Shown: positions 3,253 to 54,304 of the stretch, one piece after another
How positions within the stretch are numbered: the stretch's first letter is position 1
Layout: each line of letters opens with the position of its first letter
From: Selenomonadaceae bacterium
Lineage (GTDB): Bacteria > Bacillota > Negativicutes > Selenomonadales > Selenomonadaceae
NCBI GenBank assembly: GCA_017614505.1
Contig: JAGABT010000001.1
Coordinates: forward strand, 126,515 to 190,514
DNA length: 64,000 nt
Direction of reading: 5' to 3'
The notes under the pieces: generated by a model
Seen by the model: only the letters and a program-made list of their open reading frames with translations
Databases searched by the model: none
Told to the model about the DNA's origin: nothing
Made by a program: the position numbers and the translations under genes

Positions 3253-3365
3253 CGCGCTTGAAGAGCGCCCCATGGACGGGGCGCCATGTCCGCCAGGTCG
3301 CATGGATGCGACCGAAGCGGACGAGTTTTCTTTGCTACTTTCTTTTGCGGAAAAAGAAAGTAGAT
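3253..3365 (+). repeat. Three-hairpin mosaic repeat, copy A
   Basis: First of nine related elements. H0-like partial stem at 3254-3267. H1: arms GCGCCCC (3265-3271) and GGGGCGC (3278-3284), loop ATGGAC. H2 spans 3288-3322: outer arms GTCCGC / GCGGAC, inner arms GGTCGCAT / ATGCGACC. A spacer containing TTTTCTTTG leads to H3 at 3335-3363, arms CTACTTTCTTT / AAAGAAAGTAG. It lies between trmN6 (stop at 3419) and rsmI (start 3221), both minus strand, so transcription from trmN6 meets H3 first. There is no long U-run next to H3, so it is not a classical terminator. H2 and H3 are the same types as in copy G. Confidence 0.9.
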
Positions 3366-3418
3366 CCCCTTATCTTTAAACCGCATAGACATCAATCTCC
3401 CTTTCGATAATCAAATTT

Positions 3419-6610: not shown

Positions 6611-6639
6611 TTGACAGCTAATTTAAAATCTTGTATGTT
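6611..6639 (+). promoter_or_regulatory. Sigma-70 promoter running into repeat copy B
   Basis: Plus strand TTGACA (6611-6616), 17-bp spacer, TATGTT (6634-6639). Transcription should begin at about 6646, inside H3 of copy B, so the rest of that element becomes the 5' untranslated leader of the gene at 6761. It is divergent from the rplM promoter. Confidence 0.7.
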
Positions 6640-6734
6640 ACTTTCTTTCGAGAAAGAAAGTAACCAAAGAAAGCTTGCCCGCAGCAGTCGCTTCCGGCGA
6701 CTGGTGACGGGCGGCGCCCCGTCCATGGGGCGCC
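6638..6734 (-). repeat. Three-hairpin mosaic repeat, copy B
   Basis: Inverted orientation. H3 at 6638-6663: arms TTACTTTCTTTC / GAAAGAAAGTAA around GA. H2 at 6677-6712: outer arms GCCCG / CGGGC, inner AGTCGC / GCGACT. H1 at 6714-6733: arms GCGCCCC / GGGGCGC, loop GTCCAT. The only copy between divergent genes. The promoter at 6611-6639 points into it, so H2 and H1 fall in the leader of the 6761 gene, with GGAGG about 17 nt after H1. Confidence 0.9.
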
Positions 6735-10497: not shown

Positions 10498-10519
10498 CTG
10501 GCAACTAGCAACTAACAAA

Positions 10520-10632
10520 CTAAACAGACCAGAGACAGCAGGTGCATTCCGCGTAAATCCTGCCGAGGTCGGAGCTTTACCATTAGAAAAATTTCTCTAG
10601 TGTCTCCGATTGTCCTGGTCGGGGATTTTTTT
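10520..10632 (+). ncRNA. Ribosomal protein L10 leader
   Basis: The rplA-rplJ gap contains AGACAGCAGG ... CCTGCCGAGGT, the conserved core of the L10 leader, bound by L10 or the L10-L12 complex to repress translation and readthrough. Pairings seen: GCAGG (10538-10542) with CCTGC (10559-10563), and the basal stem GACCAG (10527-10532) with CTGGTC (10615-10620). Confidence 0.85.
10604..10632 (+). terminator. Attenuator terminator in the L10 leader
   Basis: CTCCGA (10604-10609) pairs with TCGGGG (10619-10624), followed by seven T residues. This stem shares bases with the basal leader stem (10615-10620), so the two are mutually exclusive, which is the layout expected for L10-controlled transcription attenuation. 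Confidence 0.7.
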
Positions 10633-10650
10633 ATGGGAGGTGAATTTTAA

Positions 10651-11196: not shown

Positions 11197-11202
11197 TCTT
11201 TT

Positions 11203-11333
11203 TTCAGCATTTCTTTTTTCGGCATTTCTTTATTCAGCATTTCTTTCGAGAAAGAAACGCTGGCAAAGAAAGCTGGGCCGCAGAGGTCGCATCCAGCGAC
11301 CTGTGACGGCCCGCGCCCCGTCCATGGGGCGCT
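11203..11333 (-). repeat. Three-hairpin mosaic repeat, copy C, with a triplicated edge
   Basis: H3 at 11235-11262: arms CAGCATTTCTTTC / GAAAGAAACGCTG, with one G-T pair. H2 at 11275-11312: outer GGGCCG / CGGCCC, inner AGGTCGC / GCGACCT. H1 at 11313-11332: arms GCGCCCC / GGGGCGC. In front of H3, three tandem 15-bp units (11203-11217, 11218-11232, 11233-11247; consensus TTCAGCATTTCTTTN) copy the outer arm of H3. The element fills the rplJ-rplL gap, and both genes read in the direction H3-H2-H1. Confidence 0.92.
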
Positions 11334-11373
11334 TCTAAGTTCGATTTTTGAAATTTTTGGAGGTTGAATTTTA

Positions 11374-13992: not shown

Positions 13993-14000
13993 AGAAAGAG

Positions 14001-14210
14001 GCGCCACATGGACGCACGCGCTTAAGAAGCGCCCCATGGATGGGGCGCCGGCCGTCACAGGTCGCCGGAAGCGACCTATGCGGCCGAGCTTTCTTTGGTT
14101 ACTTTCTTTCTCGAAAGAAAGTAACATCTATTGGCACCAAAAGAAAGTAACATCTATCAGCACCAAAAAAAAGTAACATCTATCAGCACCAAAAAAAAGT
14201 AACATCTAAA
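14001..14210 (+). repeat. Three-hairpin mosaic repeat, copy D, with 26-bp tandem tail
   Basis: H0 at 14018-14032: arms GCGCTT / AAGCGC, loop AAG. H1 at 14029-14048: arms GCGCCCC / GGGGCGC, loop ATGGAT. H2 at 14050-14085: outer GGCCG / CGGCC, inner AGGTCGC / GCGACCT. H3 at 14099-14124: arms TTACTTTCTTTC / GAAAGAAAGTAA. From 14117 the outer H3 arm continues into a 26-bp unit repeated about 3.6 times (14117-14142, 14143-14168, 14169-14194, then partial). This is the only copy whose H1 end, not H3, faces the nearest upstream gene end. Confidence 0.92.
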
Positions 14211-21729: not shown

Positions 21730-21764
21730 AAAAAAAATCCGCGAGGGACCGAATCTCCTCACGG
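21730..21764 (-). terminator. Rho-independent terminator of the extradiol-dioxygenase-like gene
   Basis: Minus strand CCGTGAGG pairs with CCTCGCGG (8 bp, one G-U), 10-nt loop, then A and seven T residues. It lies 21 bp after the stop at 21785. Confidence 0.88.
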
Positions 21765-21784
21765 CGAAAAATTTTTATGGCGCG

Positions 21785-22558
21785 TCAGCTGAACGTGAAG
21801 CCGGTCATCGCCATCGAACCCAGATTGCAGACGTTATTGAAAACCATGGCGTTATCGCCCTGCGCCGCGCCGAGACAGTAAATCAGCGGCAGGAAATGTT
21901 CAGGCGTCGGAACTGCGTAGGCGGCGTCGGGAATTTTTTCGTAGCTGATAATTTTTTCGGCGTCGCCAGCTGTTACCGCGTCGATAATTTTCTGGTTGAA
22001 GTTCAAGGTTTTGTCGGTGCCGTTGGGATTGTTCCAGTCGACTTCACGCAGATTGTGGACGACGTTGCCGCTGCCGAAAATCAGATATCCTTCGTCGCGC
22101 AGGGCGGAAAGTTTTTTGCCAGTCTCGAATGCGCCCGCCGGTGTAATATTCCTGTCAATCGACAGCTCTACAATCGGAATATCCGCCGCCGGAAACATGT
22201 GCACGAAAATCGTCCAAATGCCGTGGTCAATGCCCCAATCGTTGTCAACCGAAACTTGAGCGCCGAGGATTTGCTGAACGCGCGCCGCTAGTTCCGGCGA
22301 GCCTTTTGCAGGGTAACGCACTTCGTACAGTTCGCGCGGGAATCCGAACATGTCGTTTATCTGCGGCGGGCTGGCTGAAGTTTGAATCAGCGTGCCTTGT
22401 ACCGTGTACCAGTGCGCCGAAATTGCCAGAATCGCCTGTGGCTTGCCAAAAGTTGTCAGAAACTGCCTGCCGACCGCCGCCAGCGTACGCGTAATTTCGT
22501 CGTCGCGCAGGGCTATCATTGGGTCGCCGTGTCCAGAAAATATCACCGGCATTTTCAT
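21785..22558 (-). CDS. Extradiol ring-cleavage dioxygenase family (YgiD/DODA-like)
   Basis: 257 residues. LigB-fold protein of the 4,5-DOPA dioxygenase group: VIFSGHGDPMIAL (first metal His), ISAHWYTVQGTLIQ, GIDHGIWTIFVHMFPAADIP (His-rich metal site, about 110-129), IFGSGNVVHNLREVDW and TPEHFLPLIYCLGA. Bacterial relatives such as YgiD bind zinc and oxidise catechols in vitro; the physiological substrate is unknown. It is monocistronic, with repeat copy E upstream and its own terminator downstream. ATG 22558 has GGAGG upstream (CTGGAGGAACTTTC). Confidence 0.88.
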   Translation of the reverse strand: MKMPVIFSGHGDPMIALRDDEITRTLAAVGRQFLTTFGKPQAILAISAHWYTVQGTLIQTSASPPQINDMFGFPRELYEVRYPAKGSPELAARVQQILGAQVSVDNDWGIDHGIWTIFVHMFPAADIPIVELSIDRNITPAGAFETGKKLSALRDEGYLIFGSGNVVHNLREVDWNNPNGTDKTLNFNQKIIDAVTAGDAEKIISYEKIPDAAYAVPTPEHFLPLIYCLGAAQGDNAMVFNNVCNLGSMAMTGFTFS

Positions 22559-22600
22559 AATTGAAAGTTCCTCCAGAATTAAAATTCGCGCTTATAAAAA

Positions 22601-22745
22601 GCCGCCCATGGACGCACGCGCTTAAGAAGCGCCACATGGTGCAGAGGCGCCCCATGGACGGGGCGCCGCCCGCGCCATTCGCCGGATGCGAATGCAGCGG
22701 GCTGGCTTTCTTTGTAACTTTCTTTCTCCACAGAAAGAAAGTTAG
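22601..22745 (+). repeat. Three-hairpin mosaic repeat, copy E
   Basis: Starts with a partial H1 and H0 at 22618-22632 (GCGCTT / AAGCGC). H1 at 22647-22666: arms GCGCCCC / GGGGCGC. H2 at 22668-22702: outer GCCCGC / GCGGGC, inner ATTCGC / GCGAAT, so the inner stem differs from copies A-D and G but still pairs. H3 at 22715-22744: arms TAACTTTCTTTCT / AGAAAGAAAGTTA. H3 lies 12 bp after the proS stop. Confidence 0.92.
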
Positions 22746-22755
22746 AGAGACAAAC

Positions 22756-26860: not shown

Positions 26861-26961
26861 GTGGCCGCCCAAGGACGGGCGGCCGGCCGTCACAGGTCGC
26901 CGGAAGCGACCTATGCGGCCCAGCTTTCTTTGGTTACTTTCTTTCTCGAAAGAAAGTGACA
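26861..26961 (+). repeat. Three-hairpin mosaic repeat, copy F (covariant H1)
   Basis: H1 at 26863-26884: arms GGCCGCCC / GGGCGGCC, loop AAGGAC. Both arms differ from the usual GCGCCCC / GGGGCGC yet pair fully. H2 at 26885-26920 is the copy D type. H3 at 26934-26959: arms TTACTTTCTTTC / GAAAGAAAGTGA, one G-T pair. It lies between converging genes, with H3 19 bp from the stop of the minus-strand glucosidase. Confidence 0.92.
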
Positions 26962-26977
26962 TATAAAAAACAAAACC

Positions 26978-28477
<1,500 letters not shown>

Positions 28478-28615
28478 TCAGATAACTTTTTCTTCGACGC
28501 TGAATTTGGAAATCCTTTTGCTTTCGGCTGTCAAAATAAATCGCCAGAGATATTCAGCGGCGTTATGATTTTTCGTGATAGCAAGAGCCCGTGCCATTCG
28601 TCGGTAATGAAAGAA

Positions 28616-28715
28616 GCGCGCCATGGACGGCGCGCCATGTCCGCCAGGTCGCATGGATGCGACCGAAGCGGACGAGTTTTCTTTGCTACTTTCTTTTGCG
28701 GAAAAAGAAAGTAGA
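28616..28715 (+). repeat. Three-hairpin mosaic repeat, copy G (covariant H1)
   Basis: H1 at 28616-28635: arms GCGCGCC / GGCGCGC, loop ATGGAC, a third compensated arm type. H2 at 28639-28673 (GTCCGC / GCGGAC outside, GGTCGCAT / ATGCGACC inside) and H3 at 28686-28714 (CTACTTTCTTT / AAAGAAAGTAG) are the copy A type. H3 ends 2 bp from the stop codon of the alcohol dehydrogenase at 28717. Confidence 0.92.
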
Positions 28716-28716
28716 T

Positions 28717-29901
28717 TCACCTTGCCATTTCGTAAATTTTAACCATATCGTCGAAGTAAATGCGTTTCGCCGAGCCAATACTGCCGCCGGTAGCCTTTTC
28801 GCAGGACTCCGCCATTTCCTTAATCTGCTCGTCAGTAAGATTAATCCCCAGCGCGCTGATACGCGTCGGCATACCGATTTTGCGGTAGAAATCTTCCAAA
28901 TCCTCAATCCCGCGCAGAGCGACTTCCTCATCGCTGATACCCGTCGCGTCGACGCCCATAACATTTACCGCAAACTGCACAAACCTCGGCAGGCAGACGT
29001 TGTAGACGTAGCGCGCCCAGCTCCCCCATAAAGCCGCTAAGCCCGCGCCATGCGTCACGTTGAACATACCGCTGAGCTCGTATTCCAGATTGTGCGTAGA
29101 GAAATCGCCGCCGTCATTTCCGCAGCCAGTCAGACCGTTATGCGCCAGACTCGACGCCCACATAATTTCCGCCCGCGCATTGTAATTTTTTGGACTCAGC
29201 CGCAGAATATTGGCGTTGCGCATAACGGTGCGGAGCAAACCTTCAGCAATGGCATCGGTAATTTCCATGTTGCCGCCGCTGGTGAAGTACCGCTCCATCG
29301 TGTGCATCATAATATCGACGCAGCCCGCCGCCGTCTGATAATCCGGCAGTGTCATCGTCAGTTCGGGATTCATTATCGCGAACTTCGGGCGTGCCAGCGC
29401 GTCGCCGAAACTGCGCTTTTTCTTCGTTTCCTCGTTCGTTATGACGACGTTCCGGCTCATTTCCGAGCCCGCCGCCGCTATCGTCAAAATTGAACCCACC
29501 GGCAGTGACGCTTTCGGCGGACGCTTGCGCTCGAACAAATCCCAGACATTTTCATTCGGCTCCGCCAGCGCAAACGCTATCGCCTTCGCCGAGTCGATTA
29601 CCGAGCCGCCGCCTACTGCCAGTACAAAATCCACCTGATTCAAATTGCCCAGCGCAAAACCCGTCCGAACTTTGTCAAGGTGCGGATTCGGTACCACGCC
29701 GCCCAGCTCCACGTGGAAAATCCCCGCCTCGTCCAGATTTTTCTTAACCCGCGCTATCAATCCAGACCTTACCGCGCTGCCCTGCCCATAGTGCAGCAAA
29801 ACCCGCTTGCCGCCGTACCGCTTTATCAAATCCGCCACAGCGTTTTCCGTGTTCCGTCCAAAAATTATCCGCGTCGGCGTGTAGTATTCAAAGTTGTGCA
29901 A
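28717..29901 (-). CDS. Iron-containing alcohol dehydrogenase (butanol dehydrogenase type)
   Basis: 394 residues, family length about 387. Type III NAD(P)-dependent alcohol dehydrogenase: TRIIFGRNTENAVADLI at the N-terminus, the nucleotide loop LAVGGGSVIDSAKAIA (about 95-110), TIAAAGSEMSRN, and iron ligands in GCVDIMMHTMERYF and NVTHGAGLAALW. It resembles YugJ/BdhA, which reduce aldehydes to alcohols during fermentation. No cofactor preference can be read. Monocistronic, divergent from the chemotaxis receptor; repeat copy G touches its 3' end. Confidence 0.93.
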   Translation of the reverse strand: MHNFEYYTPTRIIFGRNTENAVADLIKRYGGKRVLLHYGQGSAVRSGLIARVKKNLDEAGIFHVELGGVVPNPHLDKVRTGFALGNLNQVDFVLAVGGGSVIDSAKAIAFALAEPNENVWDLFERKRPPKASLPVGSILTIAAAGSEMSRNVVITNEETKKKRSFGDALARPKFAIMNPELTMTLPDYQTAAGCVDIMMHTMERYFTSGGNMEITDAIAEGLLRTVMRNANILRLSPKNYNARAEIMWASSLAHNGLTGCGNDGGDFSTHNLEYELSGMFNVTHGAGLAALWGSWARYVYNVCLPRFVQFAVNVMGVDATGISDEEVALRGIEDLEDFYRKIGMPTRISALGINLTDEQIKEMAESCEKATGGSIGSAKRIYFDDMVKIYEMAR

Positions 29902-31581: not shown

Positions 31582-32700
31582 ATGACTGAAAATGAACAAA
31601 TCAGCGCCGCGCGAAAATTCGTAAATGAGTGGCTCAATCGCGAAGGCAATGAAAAAAGCGAAATGCAGCGTTTCTGGATTTCTTTAATCCGCGACGTTTT
31701 CGGCAAATCCGACAGCATTATCGATTTTGAAAAAAATGTCGCCGGTCATTCAATCGACGGATTTATTTCCTGCACCGGCGTCCTAATCGAGCAAAAAAGC
31801 CTGTACCAGGAACTTAAATCGCACAATGTAAAAATGCCGCTGGCATTCCGGCAGGCTAAACTTTACTACGACGAGCTGACCTATTCCGAGCGCCCGCGCT
31901 GGATTGTCATTTGCAATTTCCGCGAATTTCATATCTACGACATGTACCCCGACAACATTTTCGAAAACGATTTGCGCCCCGAAATTATCAAGCTCGAAAA
32001 TCTCTCGCGCGATTACAAACGCCTAAATTTCCTCTTCGACCCGAATGACGATTCCGTCAGACCCGAAGTCAAAGTTTCTAAAGCAGCTGCCGACCTCATC
32101 GCCAAAATCCGCGATTCCTTAAAAAGCAACTACGAAAAAAATAAGCAGCGCGACTATCAAAATTCCCTCGCTCAAATTTGCGTCCGCCTCGTTTTCTGCT
32201 TCTACGCTGCCGACATCGGGCTAATCGAACTTACCAACGACGATAAAAATATCTTCCGCTACATTAAAAATTTCTCCGACCTCCAGAATATTTTCGCCGT
32301 CATGAATCAGCCGGATCACACCAGCCTTCCCGACCCAAATCTCAACCGCTTCCCTTATGTCAACGGCGGGCTCTTTGAAGAAAAAATCTCCATGCCCACC
32401 TACAATCCCAACGTTAAGCCTATCGACCTCGCCGCCTTCCTCGAACAGACCAGAGTTTTCAAGTGGCACAATATCCACCCAGCTGTTTTCGGCGCCATTT
32501 TTGAATCTGTTCTCAACGATAAATTCCGCCGCGCCGCCGGTATGCACTACACTTCTATTGACAATATCCACCGCGTTATCGACCCGCTCTTCCTCGACGA
32601 ACTTTACGACGAATTTAAATCCGCCAGAAAAGCCCGCAAAGATAAGCCTCTCAAACTCCGCAACTTCCAAAAAAAAACTGGCGTCCATTATCGTCCTTGA
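31582..32700 (+). CDS. MmeI-like type IIL restriction-modification enzyme, N-terminal part (frameshifted)
   Basis: 372 codons read to TGA at 32698. The N-terminus is a PD-(D/E)xK nuclease: HSIDGFISCTGVLIEQKS gives Asp59 and Glu70-x-Lys72, the MmeI arrangement. A helical connector follows, with the methyltransferase N-terminal pattern HPAVFGAIFESVLN and AGMHYTSIDNIHRVIDPLF (about 300-340). The frame ends right after a run of nine A residues (32669-32677); with eight A the reading would continue into the methyltransferase domain in the next frame. So this is either a phase-off gene, a pseudogene or a sequence error. More A/T-rich than its neighbours. ATG 31582 follows the chemotaxis gene after 9 bp. 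Confidence 0.88.
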   Translation: MTENEQISAARKFVNEWLNREGNEKSEMQRFWISLIRDVFGKSDSIIDFEKNVAGHSIDGFISCTGVLIEQKSLYQELKSHNVKMPLAFRQAKLYYDELTYSERPRWIVICNFREFHIYDMYPDNIFENDLRPEIIKLENLSRDYKRLNFLFDPNDDSVRPEVKVSKAAADLIAKIRDSLKSNYEKNKQRDYQNSLAQICVRLVFCFYAADIGLIELTNDDKNIFRYIKNFSDLQNIFAVMNQPDHTSLPDPNLNRFPYVNGGLFEEKISMPTYNPNVKPIDLAAFLEQTRVFKWHNIHPAVFGAIFESVLNDKFRRAAGMHYTSIDNIHRVIDPLFLDELYDEFKSARKARKDKPLKLRNFQKKTGVHYRP

Positions 32701-34291
32701 CCCCGCCTGCGGCTCCGGCAACTTCCTTACCGAAACCTATATCTCCTTCCGCCGCCTTGAAAACCTTGTTATCCGCGAACTCTACCAAGGCGGTCAGGAT
32801 ATTTTTGAAAATCCCATCAAAGTTTCTATCGACCAGTTCTTCGGCATCGAAATTGACCCTTTTTCCGCCGCCGTCGCACAGCTTGCCATGTATATCGCTG
32901 AAAATCAAATGCTCCGCCAAATCGGAGAAATTCTCAACATTGATTTGCCTCAGCTCCCGCTCAAAAAATTCACCAATATCCACTGCGCCAACGCCCTCCA
33001 AATCGACTGGAATAATATTGTCCCGCGCGACCAGCTCACTTACATTATCGGCAACCCGCCATTTCGTGGCAGGCGTAAGCGCGACCGTGAAAAAGTTGAT
33101 GACATTTCCCTTTTCTTCGCCTACAAAGACATTGATTATGTTGCCTGCTGGTACAAAAAAGCGTCCGATTTTATTTCCGGCACGGATATTCGCTGTGCGT
33201 TCGTTTCCACAAATTCTATCTGTCAGGGCGAGCAGGTTGCGCCAATCTGGAAAAATATTTTCGCGCAGGGTATCCACTTCGATTTTGCCTGGCGTACTTT
33301 CAAATGGACCAGCGAATCTGAAAAAATGGCGGCGGTTCACTGCGTCATTATAAGTTTCAGCCAGAATTACCATGGTAAGAAATTTATCTTCGACGGCGAT
33401 AAAAAAATTCCCGCGAAAAATATCAACGCTTATCTTACTGACGGCGAAAATGTTTTTATTGAACATCGCACAAAACCAATTTGCAAAGTTCCTGAAATGA
33501 AAAATGGCAACGTACTTGCTGACGATAAAAAGTTGATTATTGAAGCTGAGCATTATGACTATTTTGTTTTACGTGAACCCGCCGCGAAAAAATATATTAA
33601 ACGACTGATTGGCTCTGAAGAATTTATTAATGGAAAAATTCGCTGGTGTCTATGGCTCGTCGATTGTTCACCTGAAGAAATTTCTAAAATGCCGCTGGTT
33701 GCTGAACGCGTCGAAGCCGTCCGCGAATATCGCGCAAGGAGCAGTTATCGAAATTTAACCAGAGCGCCGCATTTATTCAGAGATTTGAATAATCCTAAAT
33801 CGTTTCTGGTAGTGCCAGTTATTTCTTCAGAAAATCGCCGCTACATTCCGATTGGATATTTCGATTCAAAAGATATTATCGTCTCAAACGCGGTTCAGAT
33901 AATTCCCGACGCGACGGTTTATCATTTTGGCGTGCTGATAAGCTCTGTGCATATGGCGTGGACGCGGGCAGTGTGCGGGCGGCTGAAGTCAGATTATCGG
34001 TACTCGAAAGACATAGTGTACAATAATTTCCCGTGGTGCCGTCCGAGCGGAAGTCAGCGGCAGGGGATTGAGCGTACGGCGGAGCGGATACTGGCGGTTC
34101 GCGCAGAATTTGAAGGTAAAACGCTGGCATGGCTGTACGACGAAAAAACGATGCCGGAGGAGTTGCGGCTGGCGCATGCGGAAAATGACGCGGCGGTTTG
34201 TGCGGCGTATGGGTTCGAGGAAAATTTATCTGAGCCGGAAATTGTTGCGCGGCTGTTTGAGCTGTACCGGCAGTTGACAAATTCGCGCTGA
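32678..34291 (+). CDS. MmeI-like type IIL restriction-modification enzyme, methyltransferase and specificity part
   Basis: Continuation of the gene from 31582 in the +2 frame; together about 902 residues, as in MmeI (919). It opens with SAM motif I VLDPACGSGNFLTE, then FGIEIDPFSAAVAQLAMY, the adenine-N6 catalytic motif IIGNPPFRGRRK, a target-recognition region (about 33600-34000) and a helical C-terminus. Such enzymes methylate one strand and cut about 20 nt away, with no separate methylase. It has no good start codon at its head, so it is translated only if the A-run is read as eight. Base composition turns sharply G/C-rich after about 33950, like the host genes. Confidence 0.85.
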   Translation: MASIIVLDPACGSGNFLTETYISFRRLENLVIRELYQGGQDIFENPIKVSIDQFFGIEIDPFSAAVAQLAMYIAENQMLRQIGEILNIDLPQLPLKKFTNIHCANALQIDWNNIVPRDQLTYIIGNPPFRGRRKRDREKVDDISLFFAYKDIDYVACWYKKASDFISGTDIRCAFVSTNSICQGEQVAPIWKNIFAQGIHFDFAWRTFKWTSESEKMAAVHCVIISFSQNYHGKKFIFDGDKKIPAKNINAYLTDGENVFIEHRTKPICKVPEMKNGNVLADDKKLIIEAEHYDYFVLREPAAKKYIKRLIGSEEFINGKIRWCLWLVDCSPEEISKMPLVAERVEAVREYRARSSYRNLTRAPHLFRDLNNPKSFLVVPVISSENRRYIPIGYFDSKDIIVSNAVQIIPDATVYHFGVLISSVHMAWTRAVCGRLKSDYRYSKDIVYNNFPWCRPSGSQRQGIERTAERILAVRAEFEGKTLAWLYDEKTMPEELRLAHAENDAAVCAAYGFEENLSEPEIVARLFELYRQLTNSR

Positions 34292-50856: not shown

Positions 50857-51045
50857 AGGCGCCCCATGGACGCACGCGCTTAAGAAGCGCGCCATGGACG
50901 GATTAGAGGCCGCCCAAGGACGGGCGGCCGCCCGCGCCATTCGCCGGATGCGAATGCAGCGGGCTGTCTTTCTTTGCTACTTTCTTTCTGCACCAGAAAG
51001 AAAGTAGATCCCTATAAAGTATATCCCTAGAAAGTAGATCCCTAA
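50857..51045 (+). repeat. Three-hairpin mosaic repeat, copy H (covariant H1)
   Basis: Starts with a partial H1 and H0 at 50876-50890 (GCGCTT / AAGCGC). H1 at 50908-50929: arms GGCCGCCC / GGGCGGCC, loop AAGGAC, as in copy F. H2 at 50930-50964 as in copy E (outer GCCCGC / GCGGGC, inner ATTCGC / GCGAAT). H3 at 50977-51007 is the longest: 14-bp arms CTACTTTCTTTCTG / CAGAAAGAAAGTAG. The H3 side runs on into 15-bp tandem units. It lies between converging genes. Confidence 0.92.
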
Positions 51046-54197: not shown

Positions 54198-54204
54198 CAT
54201 TTGT

Positions 54205-54304
54205 TTCAGCATTTCTTTCGAGAAAGAAACGCTGGCAAAGAAAGCTGCCCGCAGCAGTCGCTTCCGGCGACTGGTGACGGGCGGCGCCCCGTCCATGGGG
54301 CGCC
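54205..54304 (-). repeat. Three-hairpin mosaic repeat, copy I
   Basis: H3 at 54207-54234: arms CAGCATTTCTTTC / GAAAGAAACGCTG, as in copy C. H2 at 54247-54282 as in copy B (outer GCCCG / CGGGC, inner AGTCGC / GCGACT). H1 at 54284-54303: arms GCGCCCC / GGGGCGC. Copies B and I thus share H2 but not H3. H3 begins 10 bp after the kdsB stop, inside an operon. Confidence 0.92.

Follow-up and report, generated by a model that had tools for sequence, protein, structure and literature searches.

The 64-kb stretch of DNA analyzed here (the window) carries nine copies, located by direct scan, of an element of about 100 nt whose 5' hairpin, H1, keeps its arms matched while their sequence changes, as do the three strands (Y1, Y2, and R) of a module at its 3' end. 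Loops containing GGA are kept, copies are insertions relative to related genomes, and whole modules are swapped between copies. The explanation that we favor, and to which we give about an even chance, is that this is a non-autonomous interspersed repeat whose written strand is selected to fold on itself, most likely a selfish REP- or MITE-like element with a folded recognition form, possibly with side use as an RNA (through its GGA sites) or as a terminator.

On its own strand the element is ordered H1, H2, Y1, and Y2:R, as illustrated by copy F on the forward strand. H1 has a stem of 7 to 8 bp and an ANGGAY loop; in copy F it forms the 5' end of the element and occupies exactly positions 26863 to 26884, with arms GGCCGCCC (26863 to 26870) and GGGCGGCC (26877 to 26884) around the loop AAGGAC (26871 to 26876). 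H2 (26885 to 26920) is a second GGA-type hairpin with an outer stem of 5 to 6 bp (GGCCG/CGGCC in copy F), a small internal loop, an inner stem of 6 to 7 bp (AGGTCGC/GCGACCT), and a loop that is usually NGGAN (CGGAA). The pyrimidine tract Y1, which is either CTTTCTTT or TTTTCTTT, is followed by a G; that of copy F (CTTTCTTT, 26924 to 26932) mirrors Y2 and is a candidate third strand. The last hairpin, H3 (26933 to 26960), has a 5' arm ending with the second pyrimidine tract, Y2 (GTTACTTTCTTT), a CTCG loop, and a 3' arm formed by the purine tract R (AAAGAAAGTGAC). Folded as RNA, copies F and G each give three separate hairpins (z scores of −6.9 and −7.2 against dinucleotide shuffles), the energy of copy F being −57.3 kcal/mol versus −33.3 ± 3.5 kcal/mol in the shuffles. 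The H1 hairpin of copy F is not a chance occurrence.

An earlier note on this DNA described three forms of the H1 arms, and the direct scan confirms each of them. The stem GCGCCCC/GGGGCGC is present in six copies: A (3264 to 3366, forward strand, H1 at 3265), B (6635 to 6734, reverse, H1 at 6734), C (11231 to 11333, reverse, H1 at 11332), D (14028 to 14127, forward, H1 at 14029), E (22646 to 22747, forward, H1 at 22646), and I (54203 to 54304, reverse, H1 at 54304), with longer arms (GGCGCCCC/GGGGCGCC) in B, E, and I. Copies F (H1 at 26863) and H (50908 to 51010, H1 at 50908), both forward, have GGCCGCCC/GGGCGGCC, and copy G (28615 to 28717, forward, H1 at 28616) has GCGCGCC/GGCGCGC. Copies F and H carry the loop AAGGAC and copy D carries ATGGAT; the other six share ATGGAC. 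All nine stems are perfectly paired, so that both arms have indeed changed with full pairing kept; the changes are real, with the refinement that F and H are of the same type, giving three H1 types rather than nine independent changes.

A covariance model (R1) built from 26 copies, some of them from the window, recovers all nine window copies at E < 1e-16 and identifies at least 67 copies in the genome to which the window belongs (2.08 Mb, 81% complete; 67 copies were scored). Contigs C1, C2, C7, C11, C14, and C19 of this genome end in or near copies, so the repeat probably broke the assembly and the copy number is an underestimate. R1 matches are present in 29 of 37 genomes of the genus, with 0 to at least 67 copies in each, and in 5 of 30 genera of the family; the R1 search of sampled other genera of the class gave no copies. 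Matches to a pattern scan of the whole collection came mostly from rumen Selenomonadaceae assemblies, which most likely include the host. The element matches no Rfam family at threshold, copy F giving only sub-threshold, chance-like matches, and a literature search with the letters of the motifs returned nothing relevant.

The covariation test over genomic copies that the earlier note had proposed, run in an equivalent form, gives a positive result. Modules were collected genus-wide by their 3' part and the loop motif, not by pairing, yielding 43 distinct H1 sequences. Among their 301 cells, 293 are Watson-Crick, 3 are G-T, and 5 are unpaired, such that 98.3% of cells are paired compared with a mean of 66.4% in shuffles; 82 cells carry changes in both partners (25.9 on average in shuffles). 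Covariation is scored at 0.726 versus 0.161 for shuffles, none of 500 of which reaches the observed value, and sliding the partner by 1 to 3 columns lowers it to 0.165 or less. With a single exception, the sequences have C-G as the loop-proximal pair; the pairs next to it vary freely. The shuffles leave sequence relatedness in place, but the slide control and the variety of stems (23 distinct 7-bp stems) argue that relatedness alone is not the cause. The near-constancy of the loop, also noted earlier, holds when hairpins are collected without regard to the loop: of 167 perfect hairpins at the position of H1, about 164 contain GGA there. Together with its closing pair, the loop almost always reads (C)A-N-GGA-Y(G). 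These data support, and strengthen, the earlier suggestion that folding, as RNA or single-stranded DNA, is what is maintained, subject to the caveats of module swapping and rare G-T pairs discussed below, and the H1 arms prove to be only the least extensive component of a more complex covarying structure.

In the window's own genome, 67 copies show 37 different combinations of H1, H2, and H3 types, which assort as exchangeable modules. The closest relative compared (G019) is about 88% identical over window positions 1 to 31560, and at the sites of copies E, F, and G, which are common to both genomes, the place is kept while whole modules differ: copy F has an identical H1 and different H2 and H3, and the H1 of copy G differs by one flipped pair and one loop base. 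The arm changes seen in the window are therefore in part swaps of ready-made hairpins, a caution for any single genome, and independent compensatory events can be counted only in other species. G-T pairs are scarce in H1 (3 of 301, 1.0%) compared with tRNA stems from the same loci (36 of 492, 7.3%; Fisher p = 2.5e-5). This is unusual for slow stepwise evolution of an RNA and fits swapping, arm homogenization, or a DNA-level fold; low G-T content is as compatible with the latter two as with an RNA fold. A strand comparison of G-T with A-C pairs was set aside: it gives 7 versus 1 in H3, with too few events and an effect of duplicate parses, and is reversed by misparses in the inner stem of H2. 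The few intermediates (the 3 G-T pairs and 5 mismatches among 301 H1 pairs), together with many C:G to G:C flips between stems and the free assortment of modules, also suit the idea that matched arms are a mutational product rather than a result of selection, arising from template switching at near-palindromes and gene conversion between copies. However, such processes cannot yield a parallel mirror relation between Y1 and Y2, pseudoknot helices with an arm of another helix lying between their two strands, or invariant loops, and we consider a purely mutational origin very unlikely; it is disfavored by the triplex and pseudoknot covariation described next, and could at most contribute to the matching of H1 arms inside a single genome.

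The 3' module contains three strands that change together. Y1 mirrors Y2 and is hence parallel-complementary to R. The T runs are unequal in 59 modules, of which 43 show an exact mirror relation and 0 a direct repeat; these asymmetric modules gave grounds to reject both direct repetition and alternative pairing as the role of Y1. A Y1 tract of form T(a)CT(b) has as its counterpart an R tract of form A(a)GA(b), a match seen for at least eight pairs of (a,b) values: (3,3), (4,4), (4,3), (3,4), (3,5), (5,3), (4,5), and (6,3). This is the relation that a parallel T.A-T/C+.G-C third strand would need. The arrangement, in which a Hoogsteen strand lies 5' of a Y-R hairpin and is parallel-complementary to that hairpin's purine strand, is that of class IV (Hoogsteen-Y-R) intrastrand triplexes, a class open to both RNA and DNA (PMC4666352). 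The bases directly before Y1 also pair, in many sister genomes, with the H3 loop to give a predicted pseudoknot helix, S1, that would hold Y1 in the groove. Helices of at least 4 bp are present in 37 of 163 modules (shuffle mean, 8.0), and over the full set S1 is found in 56 of 183 modules as 24 different helices, including GCTGC/GCAGC, TCGCC/GGCGA, GCGGC/GCCGC, and CACC/GGTG; it is mostly absent from the window's own genome. Both the triplex and the pseudoknot are deduced from sequence.

H-type pseudoknots with a major-groove U.A-U triplex are known from RNAs of the telomerase type. The order here is alike (S1, pyrimidine loop, stem 2, S1', purine strand), and would set the pyrimidines into the stem 2 major groove, although the present structure lies within an interspersed bacterial repeat and is predicted from sequence. 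Also comparable are the bacterial intrastrand triplex motifs BoxC, PIT, and TM_ECO (ITxF database, PMC4666352), which are likewise repeated intergenic single-strand triplex motifs, have no consistent relation to gene orientation, and differ strongly in copy number between close relatives. TM_ECO forms a G/C-rich purine-motif triplex, whereas the present element is predicted to form an A/T-rich pyrimidine-motif triplex of class IV, and unlike these motifs it has GGA hairpins and, in many lineages, a pseudoknot helix. An alternative is that the element acts purely at the DNA level, as proposed for BoxC and TM_ECO, extruding or stalling replication and causing local instability, with neither RNA function nor a dedicated mobilizer. 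Consistent with this are the class IV triplex architecture, the few G-T pairs, the lack of orientation preference by gene or along contigs, and the local instability of sites common to G019, which differ by whole modules and tandem end units. We nevertheless regard it as unlikely, since it leaves unexplained both the strand-specific invariant GGA loops and the arrival of copies at new sites between highly conserved genes.

Many copies are preceded by additional H1-like half units and followed by repeats of the R strand, in some cases from a different subtype, as though an older copy had been overwritten at its site. Copy D is preceded by a forward-strand partial unit, GAGGCGCCACATGGACGCACGCGCTTAAGAA, forming an extra GGA hairpin half unit (approximately 13995 to 14028), and followed by tandem 3' units, CACCAAAA(G/A)AAAGTAACATCTAT, corresponding to repeated R strands (approximately 14128 to 14205, forward), the loop remnant of which is of another subtype. 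Extra units at both ends, GGCGCC(A/C)CATGGACGCACGCGCTTAAGA in front and CACCAAAAGAAAGTAACATCTAT-like behind, are seen at copy D and at loci L069, L070, L083, and L098. About 0.9 kb beside copy E (21734 to 22646) is missing at the syntenic G019 site and carries a minus-strand gene (21785 to 22558) that is extradiol dioxygenase-like by eye. Further along, window positions 31582 to 34291 contain a methyltransferase/restriction-type gene that seems to be divided between two overlapping frames near 32690, the second with a DPACGSGNFL motif; the split suggests a frameshift.

Copies B, C, and D are absent at the orthologous, syntenic sites of G019, and the gap between the ribosomal protein genes L10 and L7/L12, in which copy C lies, has no copy in G019, in G006, or in most other members of the genus, with a different copy there in G029; these copies are insertions. 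Copy C is antisense to the flanking genes, in a gap (11197 to 11373) downstream of an Rfam L10 leader (10511 to 10640). In many relatives this gap measures only about 30 to 45 nt, and an effect on the L10:L7/L12 ratio is possible. Among 105 copies with called neighbors, the flanking genes relative to the element are oriented ++ in 27 cases, +- in 32, -+ in 11, and -- in 35, and the nearest gene end is a median of 15 to 24 nt from the copy. Orientation is thus indifferent to genes, convergent gaps (32) are favored, and divergent, promoter-containing gaps (11) are avoided. Neither GC skew nor position along contigs predicts copy orientation, and copies do not cluster by orientation along contigs; an orientation bias by replication strand was rejected on these grounds.

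The copies could also be ordinary intrinsic terminators, with H1 read on the opposite strand as a GC-rich hairpin followed by a T run. Copy F fits, its minus strand reading GGCCGCCCGTCCTTGGGCGGCC-ACTTTTTTTA directly behind a minus-strand gene that ends at 26978. However, the A run is present in only 31 of 106 copies, 22 of 68 with a facing gene able to use it versus 9 of 38 otherwise (p = 0.38), and terminators would not explain H2, Y1, or the triplex. We regard this account of the element as extremely unlikely; with no association between the A/T run and gene direction, a terminator role was rejected as anything more than occasional.

A different possibility is that the element is a CsrA/RsmE-binding RNA family, in which the paired GGA hairpins H1 and H2 bind a CsrA dimer in transcripts, as dispersed sponge or stability sites and the triplex and pseudoknot serve as a 3' cap. 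The H1 loop and closing pair, CANGGAYG in essentially all H1 hairpins, closely resembles the CsrA/RsmE site consensus, GGA is placed in the loops of paired hairpins (in about 164 of 167 H1 and in part of the H2), and csrA is carried by the window's own genome and, genus-wide, by 36 of 41 genomes. In sister genomes, moreover, order and layout are those of the core of Rfam TwoAYGGAY RNA (RF01731; Weinberg et al. 2010, PMC2864571), which has been proposed to bind CsrA (PMC4333381): two adjacent hairpins with AYGGAY or ANGGAY loops align in order to model positions 49 to 108 with scores of 31 to 40 bits. The best of these, 40.3 bits, is below the gathering threshold of 43, however, and the model has no match at E ≤ 0.01 in the window's own genome. 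The present element also differs from TwoAYGGAY in adding the Y1/Y2:R triplex module, in being highly repeated, and in an H2 loop that is often not AYGGAY; H1 has an ANGGAY loop, and the H2 loop reads NGGAN or ATGGAT within the own genome and, in several species, GTGAY. Against CsrA binding, H2 loops of several species have GTGA, G-U pairs are rare for an RNA fold, and csrA does not follow the distribution of the repeat, being encoded also by a copy-free species (G003). Of the cotranscribed insertions (++ 27, -- 35), half are antisense, with TCC rather than GGA in the transcript, which makes a simple 3' untranslated region (3'UTR) role unlikely. Overall we consider a CsrA-binding family a rather unlikely account of the element.

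A selfish repeat selected to fold on its written strand remains the reading that we prefer, and the copies resemble REP and BIME sequences, which are spread by RAYT (Y1) transposases, as short palindromic extragenic repeats with covarying arms, interspersed near gene 3' ends, variable in copy number, and insertion-polymorphic between relatives. They differ in being larger, multi-hairpin units, and no Y1 transposase (Y1_Tnp, PF01797) was found in the window's own genome (81% complete) or in G006, which is 99% complete and has 65 copies; membership of the RAYT/REP system was rejected for this reason. Spread driven by a reverse transcriptase was likewise rejected, RVT_1 (PF00078) being absent from several copy-rich genomes (none in G000, the window's own genome, or in G006, G019, G029, and G030). 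Neither a target-site duplication nor a fixed target was demonstrated. Counting for folding of the written strand is that only this strand can have both the conserved GGA loops and a parallel pyrimidine triplex. A single-stranded form would arise in read-through transcripts or as DNA during replication, H1 and H2 would offer GGA loops to a binding protein, and Y1 would sit in the Y2:R major groove as a T.A-T/C+.G-C triplex, locked in many lineages by the pseudoknot helix. The folded strand would then be recognized and spread by machinery acting in trans or by recombination between copies, with the cell presumably tolerating insertions mostly directly behind gene ends. Standing against this explanation are that no mobilizing enzyme was found in G006 or the own genome, that loop conservation implies a recognition more specific than that of a generic transposition end, and that the own genome mostly lacks the pseudoknot helix. 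The element is best called a variant of a REP-like repeat, of TwoAYGGAY-like hairpins, and of a class IV triplex, and a member of no single one of these.

The 3' module is also present in replicons of Caballeronia, Paraburkholderia, and Variovorax, at at least 40 places in some, and in Pseudoalteromonas, Ilyobacter, and a Chitinophagaceae assembly, the S1 helix being seen in Betaproteobacteria, Fusobacteriota, and Bacteroidota among others. On the Pseudoalteromonas sp. NC201 plasmid (locus L226), a GGCGCCCATGGACGGGC hairpin with an ATGGAC loop abuts the triplex module directly 3' of position 247, and the link between triplex and GGA hairpins may exist in Gammaproteobacteria too. We raise as a possibility, clearly less likely than not, that S1-Y1-G-Y2-S1'-R is a pseudoknot and pyrimidine triple helix with three covarying strands, constituting a structured family across phyla (Bacillota, Pseudomonadota, Fusobacteriota, and Bacteroidota) on different 5' parts, GGA hairpins being one example, and that it is a recognition end by which some machinery spreads or protects repeats. 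Three covarying strands are a rare kind of evidence, singling out which strand folds, and in what manner, in an otherwise unannotated repeat. If a triplex-pseudoknot end is common to repeats of several phyla, it would connect two so far separate threads of published work, TwoAYGGAY hairpins and A/T-rich intrastrand triplexes, the latter catalogued but not studied, and would offer a way to test how repeats lacking an obvious transposase spread.
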